Assembly: GCA_934533075.1 (NCBI GenBank)
Contig: CAKTBJ010000010.1
Coordinates: forward strand, 11,099 to 75,098
Source of the DNA: an uncultured Paracoccus sp.
Lineage (GTDB): Bacteria; Pseudomonadota; Alphaproteobacteria; Rhodobacterales; Rhodobacteraceae
Direction: 5' to 3'
DNA: 64,000 nt
Shown here: positions 54,178 to 64,000 of the stretch, piece after piece
Layout: each line of letters begins with the position of its first letter
How positions within the stretch are numbered: the first letter of the stretch is position 1
Translations under genes and position numbers: made by a program
Notes under the pieces: model-generated
The model's input: only the letters and a program-made list of their open reading frames with translations
Databases searched by the model: none
Told to the model about the DNA's origin: nothing

Positions 54178-57100
54178 GTTTCTATCCGCGCTCCCGCGCA
54201 GGGAGCGACGGCCTTCGCCGTCGAAATGCACAAGACGCGAGGTGAGTTTCTATCCGCGCTCCCGCGCAGGGAGCGACGCCTGATTCGGATAGTGCGATAA
54301 GAATCTCACCTTGTTTCTATCCGCGCTCCCGCGCAGGGAGCGACTGCAGTTCTGGTGATAGGTTCGAGACCTATCATGTTTCTATCCGCGCTCCCGCGCA
54401 GGGAGCGACTGCGATTATTGTTGACGATCCGCTAAAGCCTGGAGTTTCTATCCGCGCTCCCGCGCAGGGAGCGACGCAAGTCATGCGCAGAGAGGCGCTC
54501 TAAAGTTCGGGTTTCTATCCGCGCTCCCGCGCAGGGAGCGACGCCCGCGCTATGGTTGGCGCGGGCTGCTATCAATGTTTCTATCCGCGCTCCCGCGCAG
54601 GGAGCGACGCCCTGCTGACGTGTCGCCGCGCGATGTGCATGGCGTTTCTATCCGCGCTCCCGCGCAGGGAGCGACTGTTCGATCAGGTAGCAGATCCTTC
54701 GGAGGCTAAGTTTCTATCCGCGCTCCCGCGCAGGGAGCGACAGCCCGCGCTATGGTTGGCGCGGGCTGCTATCAATGTTTCTATCCGCGCTCCCGCGCAG
54801 GGAGCGACCGGTTGGTCTGTCAATAAGGATGGTGGCACAACTGTTTCTATCCGCGCTCCCGCGCAGGGAGCGACCCTTGTCCTTGCACATTTCCATCAGG
54901 ATCGGCGCGTTTCTATCCGCGCTCCCGCGCAGGGAGCGACCGTCAAAGTCTGTCCCCTTGCCAGCATCGTCTGCGGGTTTCTATCCGCGCTCCCGCGCAG
55001 GGAGCGACGTGACAAGTTGGATGGGCGCAAACGGATTCGACCTGTTTCTATCCGCGCTCCCGCGCAGGGAGCGACACGCCGATTTGAAGTGGAATGCGGA
55101 GCGTGAATTGTTTCTATCCGCGCTCCCGCGCAGGGAGCGACGTCTTTGCGCAACGGGGTTGAACCGGCGGAGGGAGTTTCTATCCGCGCTCCCGCGCAGG
55201 GAGCGACTTCAGGAACAGGTGGCGGAATATCGACAGGGCGGAGTTTCTATCCGCGCTCCCGCGCAGGGAGCGACGCTCAATTCCCAATGCGCCGGATCAT
55301 AAAGAGATTTGTTTCTATCCGCGCTCCCGCGCAGGGAGCGACAACCACGCCTGAAAATTGGCATGAACCGCGTTCGTTTCTATCCGCGCTCCCGCGCAGG
55401 GAGCGACAGATGGGGCTTGACAGTCGCCCAGATGTATGGGCGTTTCTATCCGCGCTCCCGCGCAGGGAGCGACATCAGATTGGCGGTGCCCCTTCCCCCC
55501 TCGGTCGTCGTTTCTATCCGCGCTCCCGCGCAGGGAGCGACAATGGCACGTCAATCGACTACCCCTGTGCAATTGTTTCTATCCGCGCTCCCGCGCAGGG
55601 AGCGACGGCTTCAACTCATCCGCAAGGGTCGGGACAGACATGTTTCTATCCGCGCTCCCGCGCAGGGAGCGACGGGGTCGATTATCAGCGGCTGCGGCGT
55701 GATGCCGTTTCTATCCGCGCTCCCGCGCAGGGAGCGACGTCCTGATGAGTCGGGGGGTTCCACCATAGCAGCAAGCAGGGACGTTTCTATCCGCGCTCCC
55801 GCGCAGGGAGCGACGTGACCGTGACCGGCGGTGTCGGTAAGCAGGGATGGTTTCTATCCGCGCTCCCGCGCAGGGAGCGACTTAAGGATGCTTTCCCTTC
55901 CGCGATGGAAGAAAAGTTTCTATCCGCGCTCCCGCGCAGGGAGCGACGCCCCCATCGGGCGCTTTGGACTCGATGAAACCGTTTCTATCCGCGCTCCCGC
56001 GCAGGGAGCGACGCCCTACATTGTCGCCATTAGCGACAATCTAGGGTTTCTATCCGCGCTCCCGCGCAGGGAGCGACGCGCGCGCTGCTTTCTCATGCCT
56101 GCAATCTGCCCCGGTTTCTATCCGCGCTCCCGCGCAGGGAGCGACCTCAATTCCCAATGCGCCGGATCATAAAGAGAGCTGTTTCTATCCGCGCTCCCGC
56201 GCAGGGAGCGACGCGCCGCTTTCGCCCGGCATGCGGTCGATGTTGGTGTTTCTATCCGCGCTCCCGCGCAGGGAGCGACGCTATGTCTGCAAATACATCC
56301 TCGCGGAGGATAAGTTTCTATCCGCGCTCCCGCGCAGGGAGCGACGGCGGTTCCCAAAGGTGGCCAGCTACATAGAGTCCAGTTTCTATCCGCGCTCCCG
56401 CGCAGGGAGCGACGACAGACGCATTCAAAGGCATCGGCCTTGGTATCAGTTTCTATCCGCGCTCCCGCGCAGGGAGCGACGATACCGACGCGGCCAGTTG
56501 CACCGTCGCCGGGGTTTCTATCCGCGCTCCCGCGCAGGGAGCGACGAAACGTATACGCTACATCATCAGCCGTTTTCAGTTTCTATCCGCGCTCCCGCGC
56601 AGGGAGCGACTTTAGCCTTGGCGACAGCGAACACGCCACGCGAGGTTTCTATCCGCGCTCCCGCGCAGGGAGCGACATTGAGCCGCGACCTGCAATAGGT
56701 TTCAATTCGGAGTTTCTATCCGCGCTCCCGCGCAGGGAGCGACGCTTCACCAATGTTATGAGCGCCGTTAGGATAGCGTTTCTATCCGCGCTCCCGCGCA
56801 GGGAGCGACGGTTCACAATCTTTTCCAGAAATCCGTTGCCAACGGTTTCTATCCGCGCTCCCGCGCAGGGAGCGACCGCAAGCTTTGCAGGGACAGACTG
56901 CACCGGAACGGTTTCTATCCGCGCTCCCGCGCAGGGAGCGACAATTTCCCAATGCGCGGGGTCGTAGAGCGATTTGGTTTCTATCCGCGCTCCCGCGCAG
57001 GGAGCGACTCAATACCGACGCGGCCAGACGCGCCGTCGCCGGGGTTTCTATCCGCGCTCCCGCGCAGGGAGCGACGGTTCACAACTTGTTTCACAAATCC

Positions 57101-57942
57101 GTTGCCAACGGTTTCTATCCGCGCTCCCGCGCAGGGAGCGACAATGAGCCGGGCGGCGAGTCGTCCGTTGAATTCGACGTTTCTATCCGCGCTCCCGCGC
57201 AGGGAGCGACTTGCCGTCCCGGTCGAGATTGGGTTTATTGCGCCGGTTTCTATCCGCGCTCCCGCGCAGGGAGCGACATTATAACCAATGTCGGCGGCAA
57301 GCTTCATAGTAGTTTCTATCCGCGCTCCCGCGCAGGGAGCGACGAGCCGGGCGGCGAATCGTCCGTCGAATACGATGTTTCTATCCGCGCTCCCGCGCAG
57401 GGAGCGACATACCCTTTTAGTGACACCGCCAAGGATGGGGCCGTTTCTATCCGCGCTCCCGCGCAGGGAGCGACCCTGTTCGGTTGCCGGGCGGTCAGCG
57501 CGGCCAACTGGTTTCTATCCGCGCTCCCGCGCAGGGAGCGACGGCCTTGTCGCGCAACGCGCAATGCACATAGAGCGGTTTCTATCCGCGCTCCCGCGCA
57601 GGGAGCGACCATTCATCCGCCATCCGCTCGTCAACACGTTCAGGTTTCTATCCGCGCTCCCGCGCAGGGAGCGACATCGCCACGCATGGCCCGATGAGGC
57701 CGCCTGCGTGTTTCTATCCGCGCTCCCGCGCAGGGAGCGACCGATTGACGAATAGACCGGCTTCGGACACGGCCAGTTTCTATCCGCGCTCCCGCGCAGG
57801 GAGCGACCGCCGCGCTCGATCTTGGTGCCGGATCGAGGTCTCGTTTCTATCCGCGCTCCCGCGCAGGGAGCGACGACGAAGAGCTTGACGGCATCAGCAC
57901 CATAAAAGTTGTTTCTATCCGCGCTCCCGCGCAGGGAGCGAC
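54178..57942 (-). CRISPR. Type I-C CRISPR array, 57 repeats and 56 spacers
   Basis: 57 copies of a 32-bp repeat. Read on the minus strand it begins GTCGCTCCCTGCGC and ends GCGCGGATAGAAAC, with a 7-bp stem CGCTCCC/GGGAGCG, as expected for subtype I-C. The copies look identical by eye. Spacers are 33-36 bp, except one of 44 bp (55739-55782). The array is transcribed leftwards from a leader at 57943-58130, the same strand as the cas genes, so the spacers nearest 57942 are the newest. Two older degenerate repeats survive at 48344-48433 beyond the inserted IS66-ars element. Confidence 0.98.
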
Positions 57943-58130: not shown

Positions 58131-58421
58131 TCAGATGATCAGCGGGCCGTGCAGATCGGTGGCCGGCTTGGCGCCGACATGCTCGACCCGGCGGGACCAG
58201 TTCGCCCCAAGATAGTAGTAACGCAGGCTGTCATGCGCGGGCTGGATGATGCCCTCCAGACGTGCCTTCAACCGCGTCCATTGTGCAGGATCAACCTCGA
58301 TCTCGAAAACCGAGAATTGCACCCGCTGACCGTAATCTTCGCAAGCACGGGCGACCTGACGCAAGCGCTTCCTGCCGCCCTCTTCCAGCGTGCTTACGTC
58401 GTAGGTGACCAGAACCAGCAT
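58131..58421 (-). CDS. cas2: Cas2
   Basis: A 96-residue Cas2, the ferredoxin-fold dimer that bridges two Cas1 dimers in the spacer integrase. It starts [20 protein letters not shown] with the conserved Asp of the first strand and continues [19 protein letters not shown]. Length and the YYYLGANW region fit I-C Cas2. It begins one base after the cas1 stop, using the end of cas1 (CTGGAG) as ribosome site, and lies next to the leader. Confidence 0.95.
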
Positions 58422-58422
58422 C

Positions 58423-59457
58423 TCAACTCCAGAACCAGGGCGGATAGGCGTCGATGTCGCCGCGCAGGTGACGGGCCAACATCTGGGCCTGAAGATAGGG
58501 CACCAGCCCGAAAGGGGCTTTCTCCTGAAGGAACGGGTGCAGGCGCTCTTCTTTCTTGCGCTCCTGCCAGGCGGTCAGCACGAGCTTGCGGGCATCGTCC
58601 GACAGCAGCACCGCGCCGCTTTCCATCCGGCGGAAGTCTCCGGTCCGCAGCTGTCGGCGGTTGACCAGCGACAGTGCCAGCCGATCGGCCAGGGGCGCGC
58701 GCAATTCCTCCATCAGGTCCAGCGCCAACGAGGGCCGGCCGGGCCGGTCACGATGCAGGAAGCCCACCGCCGGGTCGAGGCCCACGGCCTCGCAGGCCGA
58801 ACGGCAGTCATGGGTCAGCAGCGTATAGAGGAAGGACAGCAGCGCGTTCATACCGTCCAGCGGGGGCCGGCGCGAGCGTCCTGTCCAGCGCAGTTCCGGA
58901 TCGGGCGAGCGGATCAGGTGATCGAAGGCCGAGAAATAGAGATTCGCCGCCTCGCCTTCCGAGCCGCGCAGCAGGTCGATGCTGTCATCCTTCAACTGGA
59001 CGCGGCGCAGGATCATCGCCATGCGGTCGCTGGCACCGTCCAGTGCAGCACGGGCGTCGGGATTCATCTCGGTGCCATAGTCGCGCAGGCCCCGCCGGAT
59101 CACCGCGCGCTGGTTGGCGATCTTGCCCATCACGATCGAGCGCACGATGTCCTCGCCAGTTTCGGCCAGCCGGTATTGCGCCCGGCGCAGCAGCACGTTG
59201 CCCGAGACCGGCCCCTCGATCCGGGCCTGAAAGCGCCCCTGACGGTCCAGCAGCACGAGCGTAATACCGCGCTCGGCACAGGCGCCGATCAGGGCGGGGG
59301 TCAGCAGGACCGGTCCGAAGGCCACGACCGAGGCCAGCATATGCAGCGGCACCCGCGCCCGTTCGGCGCCGTCGATCTCGGCCACCAGGTTCTCGCCGTC
59401 CTTTCGCAGCGCGCTGCCTTCGGTCGTGGCATAAATGGTATTCAGAAGCTTTTTCAC
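58423..59457 (-). CDS. cas1: Cas1 integrase
   Basis: A 344-residue Cas1, the metal-dependent integrase for new spacers. It starts [14 protein letters not shown] at GTG 59457 with GGAG upstream; this start gives normal I-C length, while a longer frame upstream overlaps cas4. Catalytic residues are visible: Glu in [12 protein letters not shown], His in [12 protein letters not shown] and Asp in [10 protein letters not shown]. It overlaps the end of cas4 by 4 bases and precedes cas2 by one base. Confidence 0.95.
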
Positions 59458-60092
59458 GAGGTCTCCAGAGTATGTGCCAGCATGCGGTCGCGCCATTGCC
59501 GGACCGGGCGGGCGACGGTTGCCGGGCGGCACAACTCCAGCAGCGAGCAGGCGCGGCAGCGGGACTTGTGAGATGTAGGCGGCGGCGTGTCCTGGCGGGC
59601 AAGGACCGCGGCGAGGTCGGCCACCGCGGCCTCGGTCAAGGCGCGCAGCGCGGCGTCGAATGGCACGATGACGCGACGCCGGGTCTGTGCATAAAACAGC
59701 GCGCCTTCAGGAACGGGGCGGCCGGTCATCTCTTCCAGGCAAAGCGCCTGCGCGCAAAGCTGCGCCTCGTCGGCGCGGTGCAGCTTGGGCTTGCCGCGCT
59801 TGTATTCGACGGGGAAGGCAGTCTCGCCCGCGTCGCCGGCCCTGAATTCTACGACATCCGCAATACCAGTGAGGTTCAGGCGACGCGAGGCCAGCGGAAG
59901 CGACATCACCCGCCGCACCCCGCGCATCCTGCGGCTGCCGCCTTTGTCAGCTATGGCGTGGAGCACATCCCCCTCGGCGGTGAAGCGGTTCTCGGCCCAG
60001 AGCCGTTCCAGATGGATCAGCGCGGCTTGCCGCAGGCAATAGACCGCGTGCTGCACCGCCGAGATGGGGATGGGTTCCGTCCCGGCGGGCAC
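59454..60092 (-). CDS. cas4: Cas4 nuclease
   Basis: A 212-residue Cas4 of the RecB-like family, which trims and PAM-selects prespacers before integration. The first Fe-S cysteine is in AVYCLRQAALIHLE; three more are in CRACSLLELC near the C-terminus. The nuclease core is FPVEYKRGKPKLHRADEAQL. GTG 60092, four bases after the cas7 stop, is chosen because it gives the expected VPAGTEPIPISAVQH beginning; an upstream ATG frame is antisense-like filler overlapping cas7. Confidence 0.92.
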   Translation of the reverse strand: MPAGTEPIPISAVQHAVYCLRQAALIHLERLWAENRFTAEGDVLHAIADKGGSRRMRGVRRVMSLPLASRRLNLTGIADVVEFRAGDAGETAFPVEYKRGKPKLHRADEAQLCAQALCLEEMTGRPVPEGALFYAQTRRRVIVPFDAALRALTEAAVADLAAVLARQDTPPPTSHKSRCRACSLLELCRPATVARPVRQWRDRMLAHTLETS

Positions 60093-60096
60093 GGTG

Positions 60097-61047
60097 TCAG
60101 ACCAGATCCAGGATTTCGACACCCTCGGGCAGGCCGTCACGGTCGATCTGGACGATATAGTCCGAGAACTTTCGCGCCGGTGCCAGGTTGCCGAGGCCCC
60201 GGTCGTCCGCTGCGCGGAACTCGCCATCGACGTTGCGGCCGATCTTGACGCGATCGAACAGGGTATGCGCCGGCGCATTGCCGAGCGCGCTGTCATGGCG
60301 GAAGGCGATCAGGCGGCGGGTGGTCATCTCGCCCCGCGCGGCCGAGCGGTCATGCTCGAACATGCTGGCCAGCGCCTCGAACAGCAAGTCCAGATCGGTC
60401 TCGGAAAACCCCGTGCGTTCCGCGAACTTGGCCGAGATGAAGCCATGCGCGACATAAAGCCCATAAGGCACGATATGCTTGCGGCCCATCGTGCGGTTGT
60501 CAGTGCGGGCATCGCCATCCTCGCCTTCGGCGCGCTTTTTCTGCTCGGCCTCGTTGGTGGCGGCCATGCGGGTGATCGAGATTTCCACCGGCAGGATCGG
60601 CTCGACCGAATTAGCGAAGGTCATCTGTACCGGTCCCTTGACCTGGCCGCAATTGATGCCGGTGGACATGACCGCGCCGAAGGTGCGCACGTCGAAGAAA
60701 TTGGCGCACATCCAGTCGCTGAGCGCCTTGGCCTCGGTTGCGTCCTTCGGGTTCAGCTTGGGGTCTTTTTTCGACTTCTCGTCGGCGCGCAGGGCAATAT
60801 AGGCCTGACGGTGCTTTTCGTTCAGGATCGAGCCTTCCTGCACATAGATGTGGTGGCCGGCCTCGCCGGTGCGGGCCAGATCGACATAGTTGCGGATCTT
60901 GCGTTTCAGGCTGACATCGCTGACCAGCCCGTGATTGGTCTCGGGGTCCAGCCGGGGCAGGTTGCCCGCGTCGGGATCGCCATTGGGATTGCCATTGGTG
61001 ACATCGAAGATCAGCACGAAGTCGTGGCGGCGGGAAAGCGTAGTCAT
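60097..61047 (-). CDS. cas7: Cas7 (Csd2), Cascade backbone
   Basis: A 316-residue Cas7 of subtype I-C, which polymerises along the crRNA. It has FDVTNGNPNGDPDAGNLPR at its start, VSLKRKIRNYVDL, the thumb-like TFGAVMSTGINCGQVKGP and FANSVEPILPVEISITRM, and GRKHIVPYGLYVAHGF. AAGGAA precedes the ATG. It lies 46 bp downstream of cas8c. Confidence 0.95.
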   Translation of the reverse strand: MTTLSRRHDFVLIFDVTNGNPNGDPDAGNLPRLDPETNHGLVSDVSLKRKIRNYVDLARTGEAGHHIYVQEGSILNEKHRQAYIALRADEKSKKDPKLNPKDATEAKALSDWMCANFFDVRTFGAVMSTGINCGQVKGPVQMTFANSVEPILPVEISITRMAATNEAEQKKRAEGEDGDARTDNRTMGRKHIVPYGLYVAHGFISAKFAERTGFSETDLDLLFEALASMFEHDRSAARGEMTTRRLIAFRHDSALGNAPAHTLFDRVKIGRNVDGEFRAADDRGLGNLAPARKFSDYIVQIDRDGLPEGVEILDLV

Positions 61048-61093
61048 CGGCGGGGTTCCTTCGCGGTTTTCGTGAAAAGATCAGGCTGCCCGG

Positions 61094-61498
61094 TCATTCG
61101 TCCGCCTCGCCTGCATCGGCCTTGTCATCGCGTTTGCGGAAAAAATCGCTGCGTTGGTGGTAATAGCCGATGCCGAACAGCGCCTGTTCCGCAGCATTCA
61201 AAGAGGCCGGGATGGGGTCGTTGCCAGGCTCCATCAGATCGGTGATCGTCGTCAGCAGCTTTTCCAGGTTGACGGCGCGGCCGGGACTTTGCTTGCGCAG
61301 TTTCGAGAAATGGTTCTGCGAACCCGCGTCCAGTGTGCGGAACACCTTCTGCGGCGTGGCCGAGGCCGAGCCATAAAACTTGTCCTTGATGGTGGCATTT
61401 ACATTGCCGCCCAATGCGGCGCGCTGGACCTCCTCGTAGACGGCGAACAGCCGCCCAAGGATATAGCCCTTGTTCGTATTGGCGGGATCGAGCGCCAC
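61094..61498 (-). CDS. cas11: Cas11c small subunit from an internal start in cas8c
   Basis: Inside cas8c, a perfect ribosome site AAGGAGGT (63-like spacing, at 61510-61503) is followed after 4 bases by GTG 61498 in the cas8c frame. Translation from it gives a 134-residue helical protein, V/MALDPANTNKGYILGRLF... to the shared C-terminus. Independent translation of Cas11 from the 3' part of cas8c is established for type I-C systems, and the small subunits stabilise the target DNA in Cascade. The site fits that precedent closely in position and size. Confidence 0.75.
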   Translation of the reverse strand: MALDPANTNKGYILGRLFAVYEEVQRAALGGNVNATIKDKFYGSASATPQKVFRTLDAGSQNHFSKLRKQSPGRAVNLEKLLTTITDLMEPGNDPIPASLNAAEQALFGIGYYHQRSDFFRKRDDKADAGEADE

Positions 61499-62842
61499 GG
61501 GGACCTCCTTCGACTTGAAATTGCGGATCAGGACGGATTTCAGGATCGCCGCGCGCAGGGCATTCACCTCGCCATCGGCGCGGATGCGCATCAGCGCGGT
61601 GGACAGCAGTGTCAGCGGATAGGGCGTGCCGGTCAGGATCGCGCGCATCCACTCGCCCGCGATCAGCGGCGGCACATTCTCGCGCTTGTTCAGTACCGCC
61701 AACTCGGTCAGATAGCGCCAGAGGGGCGGCCAGTCGTCGCGGGGCGGCGGCTCCAGCCTGGTGTCGTCGAGATAGCGCTGGTAATTCGCGGTCAGCGTGC
61801 CGAAATCGCTTTCCCACCAGAACCGCACCGACAGACGCGCGGCGTTGGGGGCCAGGCCGAGGACGTAGAAGCGCACCCCCTTGTCCAGTTCCGGGGCGAT
61901 GTCCACCAGCCGCTGCCCGTCGCGGATGCCGGTCAGCCGGTCCTTGACCTTGCTGGCTTCCACGCTGTCTTCGGCACTGCTGTCGTTGGAGGGGTCGAAC
62001 ATGCCGACGAACATCGCCTCGGCGGCCTTGGCCTCCTCCGAATTCGATGCATCCGCCCAGAACACTGTGGAAGCATCGCCGATCTGGAGGCGGTGGGCCT
62101 TGTCGGCAAGAAATCCGTTCAACGCCGTGGTGTAGGCGAAGGCCGCGGCCTCCGACACCGGTGCGTTGTCGCCCTGTTCGTGGCCGTAGGAGGTGAAGGC
62201 GTCGAGGTTGAAGGAGACCAGACTGGCACCCGAGGATTGCGCACCCCACACACCCTTGATCGACGAGTGCAGGCGCGCAGCCGGCGCGGATGTGCCGGTG
62301 ACAAGGCACAGTTTCGGGTCGGATGCGCCTTCGGCCGCGATGCGGCGCCACAGATCGCGGGCGGCAGGGCGGTCATGCAGGAAGGCGAGTTCGGAGGACA
62401 GCCGGAATGTGACGTTCTGGTCGCGCATTTCCTCGGGCCAGAGGGGCGGAACGAACTGGTCCGCCGTCCAGCCCTCCAGAAAGCGACGCAGCGCCACCAG
62501 CCCTTCGTCATCGGCTTCGGCCAGCCAGCCCAGGTGCTTTGCCCGAAAGGTCGCATGTTCGTCGGCGGTCCGCTTGCCCTCGCCCGCGGTCACGCCCAGC
62601 ACATAAGCGGTCTTGTCCCACAGCACATTCGGGTCGATGCCGACCGTGCGCTTCCTTGCTTGCGGCACCAGCAGCATCCGCGGGCTGCGCTTCTTGTCGG
62701 GCGCGCGCAGGTCGGTCACCTCCGTCACCGAGCCGTCCGGGTTCAGCACCACGCAAAAGCCGATCTTCTCCAGGGAATAGCCAAAGGGCGGTGCGTCGGG
62801 CAGGCGGTCATAGGCGCGGACCAGGGCGGAAAGCAGGCTCAT
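61094..62842 (-). CDS. cas8c: Cas8c (Csd1), Cascade large subunit
   Basis: A 582-residue I-C large subunit that reads the PAM and helps open target DNA. It begins MSLLSALVRAYDRLPDAP with GYSLEKIGFCVVLNPDG, the Csd1 N-terminus, and contains NAARLSVRFWWESDFG and the helical C-terminal domain from about residue 450. ATG 62842 overlaps the cas5 stop by 4 bases. The gene contains a second internal start that should give Cas11 separately (see 61094-61498). Confidence 0.95.
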   Translation of the reverse strand: MSLLSALVRAYDRLPDAPPFGYSLEKIGFCVVLNPDGSVTEVTDLRAPDKKRSPRMLLVPQARKRTVGIDPNVLWDKTAYVLGVTAGEGKRTADEHATFRAKHLGWLAEADDEGLVALRRFLEGWTADQFVPPLWPEEMRDQNVTFRLSSELAFLHDRPAARDLWRRIAAEGASDPKLCLVTGTSAPAARLHSSIKGVWGAQSSGASLVSFNLDAFTSYGHEQGDNAPVSEAAAFAYTTALNGFLADKAHRLQIGDASTVFWADASNSEEAKAAEAMFVGMFDPSNDSSAEDSVEASKVKDRLTGIRDGQRLVDIAPELDKGVRFYVLGLAPNAARLSVRFWWESDFGTLTANYQRYLDDTRLEPPPRDDWPPLWRYLTELAVLNKRENVPPLIAGEWMRAILTGTPYPLTLLSTALMRIRADGEVNALRAAILKSVLIRNFKSKEVPVALDPANTNKGYILGRLFAVYEEVQRAALGGNVNATIKDKFYGSASATPQKVFRTLDAGSQNHFSKLRKQSPGRAVNLEKLLTTITDLMEPGNDPIPASLNAAEQALFGIGYYHQRSDFFRKRDDKADAGEADE

Positions 62843-63603
62843 TGCTTGACCTCAGGGCTGCCGGGCCGGGGCACCTCGATCACGCCGTCGCGCAGGATGG
62901 CGCGAAAAAGCAGCGACGGACGACCCGGCGCGGCGTGGTCGATGTCCCATAGCATGAAGCCCAGATCGCGCGGATTGCCGAAGCCCAGTTCGGGCGTTTC
63001 GGCCTCGGGCGCGCGGAAGGGTGCGGGGGTCGTGGTCGTGGCGCCGGCGCGGCAAAGCTGGCCCCAGGCCGGGCCGGTGGTGGCGGGCAGGAGGGCACGC
63101 GGCTCGACCAGGGCGAAATTCGCGGCGAATTCACGGGTGCCGAGGCAGGGCTGGTTGAAACATTGCCCGCGGCTGGCGCGGCGATTGAAGATGTCCAGGT
63201 GCTTGCCCTCGCTGTCCGAGGCGTCGGCGCGGCGGGTCATCTCGAAATGCGCCTCGATCACATAGGCAGGGTTCACCAGCACCGTGGAGGCGCGCTGCTG
63301 GCGATCCTCGTCGACCAGCAGTTGCAGGCCCTCCAGGTCGCCCCGGTTCATGGCGCGCTTGATCGAGCCAGCCGGCGCCTTGTGGCCCACCTCGTTGCGG
63401 CGTATGGATTGGAAGCGGATCGGCTCCAGCACGTGGATGCGGTCGATGACCCAGCGGATCGCCGGCTTCCAGTGGATCGCTTCGAGGATGCCGCGTGCCG
63501 CCGAAGGCGTCATGACGTCATAGCTTGTCCGTTCGACCTTCAGCTCCGGCCGGGTGAACAGGGCATGCCGCCCCCAGACGTGCAGTCGTATTCCGTATGC
63601 CAA
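62839..63603 (-). CDS. cas5: Cas5c (Cas5d), crRNA-processing subunit
   Basis: A 254-residue Cas5 that in type I-C replaces Cas6 as the crRNA endonuclease and then caps the 5' handle. It starts MAYGIRLHVWGRHALFTRPE and has VERTSYDVMTPSAARGILEA, typical of the subtype. The start is TTG 63603, supported by GAGGAG 8 bases upstream; there is no ATG nearby. It opens the leftward cas5-8c-7-4-1-2 operon, with a predicted promoter at 63686-63658. Confidence 0.93.
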   Translation of the reverse strand: MAYGIRLHVWGRHALFTRPELKVERTSYDVMTPSAARGILEAIHWKPAIRWVIDRIHVLEPIRFQSIRRNEVGHKAPAGSIKRAMNRGDLEGLQLLVDEDRQQRASTVLVNPAYVIEAHFEMTRRADASDSEGKHLDIFNRRASRGQCFNQPCLGTREFAANFALVEPRALLPATTGPAWGQLCRAGATTTTPAPFRAPEAETPELGFGNPRDLGFMLWDIDHAAPGRPSLLFRAILRDGVIEVPRPGSPEVKQ

Positions 63604-63650
63604 GCTTTTCTCCTCTGTAGAGGTGGAACCATAGGCTCGGTCGTTTTACA

Positions 63651-63670
63651 TTCGTTCAGTGTATGCAGTA
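63651..63670 (+). promoter_or_regulatory. Putative target of the crRNA-like RNA (TTC PAM plus seed)
   Basis: TTC (63651-63653, the usual I-C PAM) is followed directly by GTTCAGTGTATGCAGT. The pseudo-spacer at 63852 reads GTTCAGGTGTAAGCAGT: six matching bases, one extra G, then TGTA, one mismatch and GCAGT. The target covers the predicted cas5 -10 box and lies upstream of the small frame at 63734. Confidence 0.5.
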
Positions 63671-63686
63671 GTATTTTCTACGGCAA
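63658..63686 (-). promoter_or_regulatory. Predicted promoter of the cas5-cas2 operon
   Basis: On the minus strand: TTGCCG (63686-63681), 17 bp, TACACT (63663-63658), 55 bp before the cas5 start. Each hexamer matches consensus at 4/6 with ideal spacing. The -10 box lies inside the sequence resembling the pseudo-crRNA guide (63654-63669). Confidence 0.5.
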
Positions 63687-63733
63687 GTGATTCGTGATAC
63701 GATCCCTTCGTTGGCAGAATAGGAGGTTCCATC

Positions 63734-63805
63734 TTGTCCAGGCGTTATGCGTTGAGGCTTCTTGCTGGAGCGTCTTTGTTCGCCGTGCTCGAAGAGCCAT
63801 TATAG
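63734..63805 (+). CDS. 23-codon small frame with strong ribosome site (CreT-like candidate)
   Basis: On the plus strand, between cas5 and cas3, AGGAGGT (63721-63727) is followed after 6 bases by TTG 63734 and a 23-codon frame ending at TAG 63803-63805. The peptide starts MSRRYALRLLAG and ends FAVLEEPL: basic, then hydrophobic. It uses AGG twice, CTT twice, TCT and TTA, codons otherwise rare here (the neighbouring giant gene uses no TTA over some 7,900 codons). It lies 16 bp upstream of the degenerate CRISPR repeat. In CreTA modules, a tiny toxin gene with rare codons precedes the crRNA-like antitoxin in this order. A chance frame cannot be excluded. Confidence 0.4.
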   Translation: MSRRYALRLLAGASLFAVLEEPL

Positions 63806-63821
63806 CCCGCCTGATCGTCTG

Positions 63822-63890
63822 GTCGCGGAGACACACCGCGCGGGTTGAAACGTTCAGGTGTAAGCAGTGTTGATGGGTGCTTGTCCGGCG
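63822..63890 (+). ncRNA. crRNA-like RNA: degenerate repeat plus pseudo-spacer (CreA/CreR-like candidate)
   Basis: 63822-63851 on the plus strand begins GTCGC and ends GCGCGGGTTGAAAC. The array repeat (minus strand) begins GTCGC and ends GCGCGGATAGAAAC, so the 5' five bases and 12 of the last 14 match; the middle differs but still allows a hairpin (CGCGG/CCGCG). The conserved end is the I-C crRNA handle. The pseudo-spacer starts at 63852 with GTTCAGGTGTAAGCAGT. A weak second repeat-like end, GCGTATTGAATC, lies at 63888-63899. TATAGC at 63801-63806 could be a -10 box. The RNA would run opposite to the cas genes and the main array. The 3' end is not defined. Confidence 0.55.
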
Positions 63891-63918
63891 TATTGAATCT
63901 GCGTCGGGCAAGCGCGTT

Positions 63919-64000
63919 TCATACAATGGTGGATTCCTCCGCCAGATAGTCCGCGCGCTCCCACCAAAGGCCGGCGTCGTCGCGATAGAGGCTATCGGTT
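63919..64000 (-). CDS. cas3: Cas3 C-terminus (partial)
   Basis: The last 26 codons of a leftward gene entering from beyond the window: ...DSLYRDDAGLWWERADYLAE, then ESTIV and a stop at 63921-63919. Position upstream of cas5 in a I-C operon and the Y-x-x-x-x-GL-W ending fit the Cas3 helicase-nuclease tail. Too short for domain assignment. Confidence 0.7.
   Translation of the reverse strand, partial: TDSLYRDDAGLWWERADYLAEESTIV

Follow-up and report, generated by a model that had tools for sequence, protein, structure and literature searches.

The cas3-cas5 gap and its contents

The window (the whole 64,000-nucleotide stretch of DNA analysed here) ends in a minus-strand type I-C operon. We identify cas5 (type I-C Cas5c/Cas5d; 62839-63603, minus strand, NCBIfam TIGR01876 above cut-off) and, in the same operon, cas8c, cas7, cas4, cas1, and cas2 (58131-62842, minus strand, NCBIfam above cut-off), with a CRISPR array after cas2 (54178-57942, minus strand, repeat GTCGCTCCCTGCGCGGGAGCGCGGATAGAAAC). 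To our knowledge, type I-C systems lack cas6. By eye, two array spacers at 54543-54776 on the minus strand have ATTGATAGCAGCCCGCGCCAACCATAGCGCGGGC in common, and several others are near-copies of each other. The start of cas5 at 63603 and the stop at 63919 of the gene upstream, both on the minus strand, bound a gap of 315 bp (63604-63918) that holds the entire module discussed here. Of the upstream gene, no more than the final 26 codons fall in the window, a piece so short that family models gave no match; we name it cas3 because the long frames at the same place in relatives end similarly.

On the plus strand of the gap lies a creT-like small frame of 23 amino acids (63734-63805, MSRRYALRLLAGASLFAVLEEPL), which starts with TTG and is preceded by a perfect Shine-Dalgarno sequence, AGGAGGT (63721-63727, plus strand). 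Two of its codons are AGG, which makes up 0.13% of the codons in four cas genes of the window. The frame is followed on the same strand by a degenerate CRISPR repeat (63822-63851), composed of a 5-bp hairpin (63824-63840) and then an 11-nt handle, CGGGTTGAAAC (63841-63851); the pseudo-repeat ends in GCGGGTTGAAAC and the array repeat in GCGGATAGAAAC. Local alignment of these two repeats gives p = 0.06 against shuffles, which is weak alone, and the hairpin (CGCGG-AGACACA-CCGCG), 11 nt upstream of the guide, is by itself no stronger than in shuffled sequence. What makes the repeat and hairpin of the window secure is the comparison with relatives.

The guide, or pseudo-spacer, was taken as the bases from 63852, right after the handle (63852-63885, plus strand), and shares its 3′ part with a terminator-like hairpin of 16 pairs with a weak T tail (63877-63915, plus strand; fold of 63815-63915, z -2.66). 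This hairpin was not listed by the terminator scan, Rfam gave no match, and no second pseudo-repeat was found after the guide, the gap of the window having one exact handle. Most but not all CreTA modules have a second pseudo-repeat, and creA of H. hispanica is described as also ending in a terminator (PMC8501985), so that the missing repeat is not decisive.

Each TTC-flanked site was scored at guide positions 1-5, 7-11, and 13-17, which are those that a type I Cascade reads, with or without one target base missing at position 6. The guide of the window agrees at 15 of 15 scored positions, guide position 6 being skipped, with a target at 63654-63670 that follows a TTC PAM at 63651-63653 (both plus strand) and reads GTTCA, the base of position 6 missing, GTGTA, a mismatched T, GCAGT, and a mismatched A. 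The other 1418 of the 1419 TTC sites in the window score at most 11 with this guide, and 23 guides of other loci score at most 10 against the same target region. The match of guide and target is far beyond chance. A strictly in-register scoring, tried and rejected, rated the window and locus L022 poorly, and a missing target base at position 6 explains both; in the best register, the sixth target base is absent in the window, L022, and L104, the last with further mismatches.

A sequence-only reading of this DNA had described a 23-codon plus-strand frame with a perfect AGGAGGT and rare codons, a degenerate type I-C repeat with a conserved handle, and a pseudo-spacer resembling TTC-adjacent DNA at 63651-63670 upstream of the frame, with toxin gene, pseudo-repeat, and pseudo-spacer in the order known from CreTA. 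All of these features are confirmed at the positions given above, and the 15/15 match with its every-sixth-base pattern makes the relation of pseudo-spacer and target more than a resemblance. The same reading had placed the target over a predicted cas5 -10 box, and this too was borne out, with a predicted promoter of the small frame at the same site. That promoter (63645-63674, plus strand) consists of TTTACA (63645-63650), an 18-nt spacer, and TAGTAT (63669-63674); the consensus scan found one promoter against a shuffle mean of 0.1, and its matrix score has p 0.04. The PAM abuts its -35, and the matched part of the target spans the spacer into its -10. The predicted cas5-directed promoter (63658-63686, minus strand) consists of TTGCCG (63681-63686), a spacer of 17, and TACACT (63658-63663), and has the best matrix score in its direction, a score taken without a shuffle control. 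The matched part of the target covers this -10 completely.

The module in other type I-C loci

We compared the gap across 110 type I-C loci: a first set of 80 cas5 loci from a species-level genome collection, drawn from at least 581 stretches with a cas5 relative and brought to 81 by the window, and a second set from the genomes of two orders (51 matches, 45 loci, 29 of them non-duplicate). In the first set with the window, an exact repeat handle is present in 20 of 27 gaps of at least 200 bp versus 1 of 54 shorter gaps, 19 of which (under 20 bp) were covered by the all-loci handle scan only; the sole short-gap handle, in L045, has no target. The second set has a handle in 5 of 6 long gaps versus 1 of 23 shorter ones, the short one being L103, with a target of 15/15. 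The gaps of L026 and L103 had been shortened by a chance frame, behind which the L026 module lies directly upstream of cas5, and both modules were recovered by the unbiased handle scan. Across all 110 loci, 64 handles lie outside arrays, and 28 of these have a TTC target of at least 12/15 within 1.2 kb, a score that swapped guides reached in 6 of 1253 trials. The sequence-only reading had looked to related gaps for conservation of repeat, guide, and target, and these counts answer positively. Twenty-three of the 28 modules sit in a bounded cas3-cas5 gap, and the others are in L026, L114, L011, L012, and L023. In-gap handles with lower scores are those of L015 and L035 (11) and of L045, L076, and a second handle of L047 (9); the L035 target is decayed, and L076 has no convincing target. 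A plasmid search also returned type I-C cas5 relatives, the nearest at 68% protein identity. In L114, the guide lies between cas5 and cas8c, with a 14/15 target 75 nt away.

Pairing was tabulated in 30 modules (the 28 together with L015 and L035), with agreement at the scored positions raised by selection and positions 6, 12, and those beyond 17 unused in target choice. Positions 1-5 each pair in 29-30 of the 30, positions 7-11 in 25-30, positions 13-16 in 23-27, position 17 in 17, and positions 18-30 in 4-12, while positions 6 and 12 match at chance level (5/27 and 5/30). Guides differ among loci yet fit their own targets; guide and target therefore change together. The layout of the repeat is shared as well: in 29 of the 30 modules, a hairpin with a stem of at least 4 bp stands immediately above the handle (combined p 6e-9 against shuffles, the hairpins taken singly being mostly not significant), exactly 11 nt are left after it in 26 of 30, and the stem sequences differ. 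The repeats of L035, L058, and L103 are nearly intact.

The small frame of the window belongs to a peptide family of 23-32 amino acids, which we term family A, found at ten loci including the window, L026, and L098 (26-32 amino acids in the nine relatives; consensus MxRRxYALRLxIGxFxIALELDLEPP). The window copy is the weakest member, with its TTG start and a length below that of the family, and a profile of eight relatives ranked it top among 1336 window frames, if weakly (E 0.022). In a gap-free comparison of seven members, with the window, L026, and L072 left out, codon differences comprise 215 synonymous and 200 nonsynonymous changes, a balance that 0 of 1000 column shuffles matched. Judged by these codons, the family A peptide is under protein-level selection in the seven relatives compared. 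The family is rare outside the known loci: among sampled genomes, 1 of 390 from one order and 2 of 397 from a second order have it; these three genomes are L013, L047, and a new one, whose copy also lies in a cas3-cas5 gap. In 13 genomes searched by handle, a clear copy is present in seven, and there was no second copy in those 13 except one weak match (E 0.045). From its arrangement and by analogy with known CreTA modules, the small gene is likely a toxin.

A guide that would silence a small gene

We propose, with a probability of roughly 0.78, that the guide directs type I-C Cascade to block the promoter of the small gene and thereby silences a likely toxin. A CreTA-like module of type I-C that possibly also tunes cas5 is the best reading of the locus as sequence, and a module guarding or tuning this locus, as first suggested, finds support in the gene order, the guide-target match, and the relatives. 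Guarding and tuning are both kept because the target of the window lies at predicted promoters in both directions. Several properties of type I-C systems, as published, bear on this proposal: crRNA is processed by Cas5 (PMC10651486), TTC is a PAM, and in a type I-C CRISPRi system repression is obtained with a single repeat-spacer unit and with a TTC spacer placed on a -10 box (PMC10865793). A plus-strand RNA of repeat and guide would be produced and cut by Cas5 below the hairpin, leaving the 11-nt handle, and Cascade carrying this RNA would occupy the target. With pairing that ends at about position 17, activation of Cas3 is improbable, and the expected outcome is binding of the site, not cleavage. 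Were Cascade lost or inhibited, the small gene would be released, and the peptide, or its rare-codon mRNA, would then harm the cell and make the operon addictive.

Because the target in the window also covers the predicted -10 of cas5, expression of cas5, cas8, and cas7 would probably be lowered by this complex as well. Among the other members of the window's orientation class, the geometry varies: relative to the best predicted creT promoter, the target lies upstream of the -35 in L015 and L075 and after the -10 in L013, and several of these promoter predictions are no better than shuffles. Given this variation, and an overlap with the cas5 -10 in L047 only of the other eight, we offer double control of the window as a hypothesis and not as a rule.

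Could the guide act on cas5 alone? Autorepression of the cas5 operon in the manner of CreR, with the small frame incidental, strikes us as improbable. It would suit the window and L047, the two of nine class members scanned in which the seed lies wholly over the predicted cas5 -10, the target PAMs of this class at 0-159 nt upstream of cas5, and L006, where no small gene is recognised beside guide and target. CreR is also described as widely distributed, its range being given as type I at large and V-A in a review (PMC12737573) and as I-B, I-E, and V-A in another review (PMC13131331). However, the small frame is conserved as protein in the seven relatives tested, and in the other orientation class the target lies at least 242 nt upstream of cas5 in the ten loci with a target, its PAM starting within 4 bases of the start of the small gene's best -35 in six of ten loci scanned (L002, L003, L058, L063, L064, and L121). 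L035 combines an apparently broken small frame with a decayed target, as expected if the small gene and not cas5 maintains the target. A solitary repeat left by a phage as an anti-CRISPR RNA decoy (Racr) would likewise be degenerate, single, and outside an array, and Racrs are known for type I-C (PMC10651486), but a decoy needs no guide, the guides here fit local PAM targets with the sixth-base pattern, and the modules found lie within cas operons; we give this account very little credence. A chance repeat-like stretch with a chance match in a long intergenic gap would accommodate the marginal repeat similarity and the weak small-frame profile match of the window, but a full match unique among its TTC sites and the recurrence of the module in relatives leave this with almost no probability.

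Within the proposed silencing of a toxin, the harmful agent might be the mRNA of the small gene, whose strong ribosome site and rare Arg codons would sequester scarce tRNA, like haloarchaeal CreT. We consider this less likely than not. The perfect AGGAGGT and the two AGG among 23 codons in the window fit it, as do the rare Arg codons of the family (23 of 48 Arg codons across the ten family A genes versus 24 of 228 for the corresponding cas5 genes, p 2e-8), with at least one AGA, AGG, or CGA in nine of ten members; this enrichment therefore leaves room for an effect of the mRNA. Yet amino acids far beyond Arg are kept through synonymous change, rare Arg codons number 0 of 4 in L015 and 1 of 6 in L047, and a second peptide family at the same site (family B, below) is conserved as protein with, by eye, few Arg codons.

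The module is close to type I-F CreTA of Acinetobacter, which, as described (PMC10097628), occupies the equivalent cas3-csy1 gap, has a degenerate repeat and a guide that partly matches a PAM-flanked site, and controls a mini-ORF with a Shine-Dalgarno sequence. The type I-F module has a CC PAM, two pseudo-repeats, a mini-ORF divergent from creA, and a toxic small RNA, whereas the window has a type I-C context, a TTC PAM, a single recognised repeat, a small frame that shares its strand with the guide, and peptide-level conservation in its family. Type I-B haloarchaeal CreTA, according to its published account (PMC8501985), shares the TTC PAM and the pairing of positions 1-5 and 7-11 with 6 and 12 free, and represses the toxin promoter, as is predicted here; it differs in being processed by Cas6, in lying beside cas6 or the cas operon, and in a toxin that is an RNA sequestering a rare tRNA, whereas family A is conserved as a peptide. 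CreR may resemble the window in being a crRNA-like RNA that partly matches a cas promoter (PMC12737573, PMC13131331), which in the window would be the predicted cas5 -10, but is generally described in the review (PMC12737573) without a coupled toxin gene, whereas the window has a conserved small frame, a putative toxin gene, between target and guide. In CrePA, as outlined in that review (PMC12737573), a CreA-like RNA holds down a protein that is freed on inhibition of Cascade, as proposed here; CreP typically has a KilA-N domain, whereas the products here are short peptides and, in L011, L012, and by eye L023, a DUF1508 protein, and the small frame of the window matched nothing in NCBIfam or Pfam, KilA-N included.

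The CreTA descriptions that we found concern Cas6-based I-B and I-F systems, and in the literature searched neither CreTA nor CreR is described for type I-C. A survey by Shmakov et al. (NAR 2023) reportedly covers standalone repeats in type I and V-A loci whose guides have partial matches to promoters. The departures from the CreTA of the literature searched are Cas5 in place of Cas6, peptide-level conservation, and probably exchangeable cargo, and they may be new to print. If the proposed reading is true, the CreTA guard would extend to type I-C, with a guide processed by Cas5 and peptide genes conserved as protein. The 28 natural guide-target pairs of at least 12/15 would also point to the bases on which non-cutting binding by type I-C Cascade probably depends, and targets with a missing base bear directly on how strict the sixth-base spacing is. 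We predict that anti-CRISPR proteins against type I-C trigger the module genes.

Varied and probably exchangeable cargo at the module site

Loci with the guide on the cas strand have small frames other than family A. Family B (L002, L003, L004, L120, and L121) shows 86 synonymous versus 58 nonsynonymous differences over 18 codons, a balance matched in 0 of 1000 shuffles. Family C is hydrophobic and was grouped by eye (L052, L058, and L064, for example); the frames of L025 and L035 look broken relative to it, and there are single cases besides. In L011, L012, and L023, the module gene encodes a protein of 55-56 amino acids about 4 kb downstream of the cas5 start. Pfam DUF1508, which we take to be YegP-like, matches the proteins of L011 and L012, and that of L023 is similar by eye. 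This gene lies between the TTC target and the repeat-guide unit in all three loci; a larger protein may therefore share the same control.

On a fast cas5 tree, the seven groups require 34 changes against a shuffled mean of 36.0, a number as low in 12 of 200 shuffles, so that the clustering of cargo on this tree is slight, and the nearest rows to the window have other cargo. Since the families are scattered, modules have probably often been gained, lost, or exchanged; many branches of the tree are weak, and finer claims are unsupported. The cargo comprises at least four unrelated types: an RR..ELDLEPP peptide, a KPPKP..LLECLALALR peptide, an FW-hydrophobic peptide, and a DUF1508 protein. We regard the odds as about even that type I-C operons of Alphaproteobacteria carry an exchangeable addiction cassette, in which at least four unrelated genes would have their own Cas5-processed guides pairing with promoters at positions 1-5, 7-11, and 13-17, and in which the complex of the window would shut both a peptide toxin and the cas5 operon while tolerating loss of the sixth base. 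As part of this broader proposal, the window version would hypothetically combine, at a single site, the guard function of CreT with the thermostat function of CreR.

The cas3-cas5 gap is a cargo site. Among the 27 long gaps of the first set, seven have no handle: six contain a conserved frame of about 100 amino acids (by eye), and the seventh is that of L012, whose module lies at another place of the operon; L093 is the sole long gap of the second set without one. The frame of about 100 amino acids, VTWPNGKIYVGSDLTDS..., was seen in L001, L014, L017, L055, L056, and L079 and partly in L062, and was translated for L014 and L079. For these two, NCBIfam gave no match and Pfam none above cut-off; presumably the frame resembles GIY-YIG domains. 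By eye, the guide units of L025, L052, L058, and L064 stand between long inverted repeats, which may loop the guide unit, terminate transcription, or affect cas5 translation. In the gap of the L078 module, a 68-codon frame upstream of the target resembles what we take to be a BrnA-type antitoxin.
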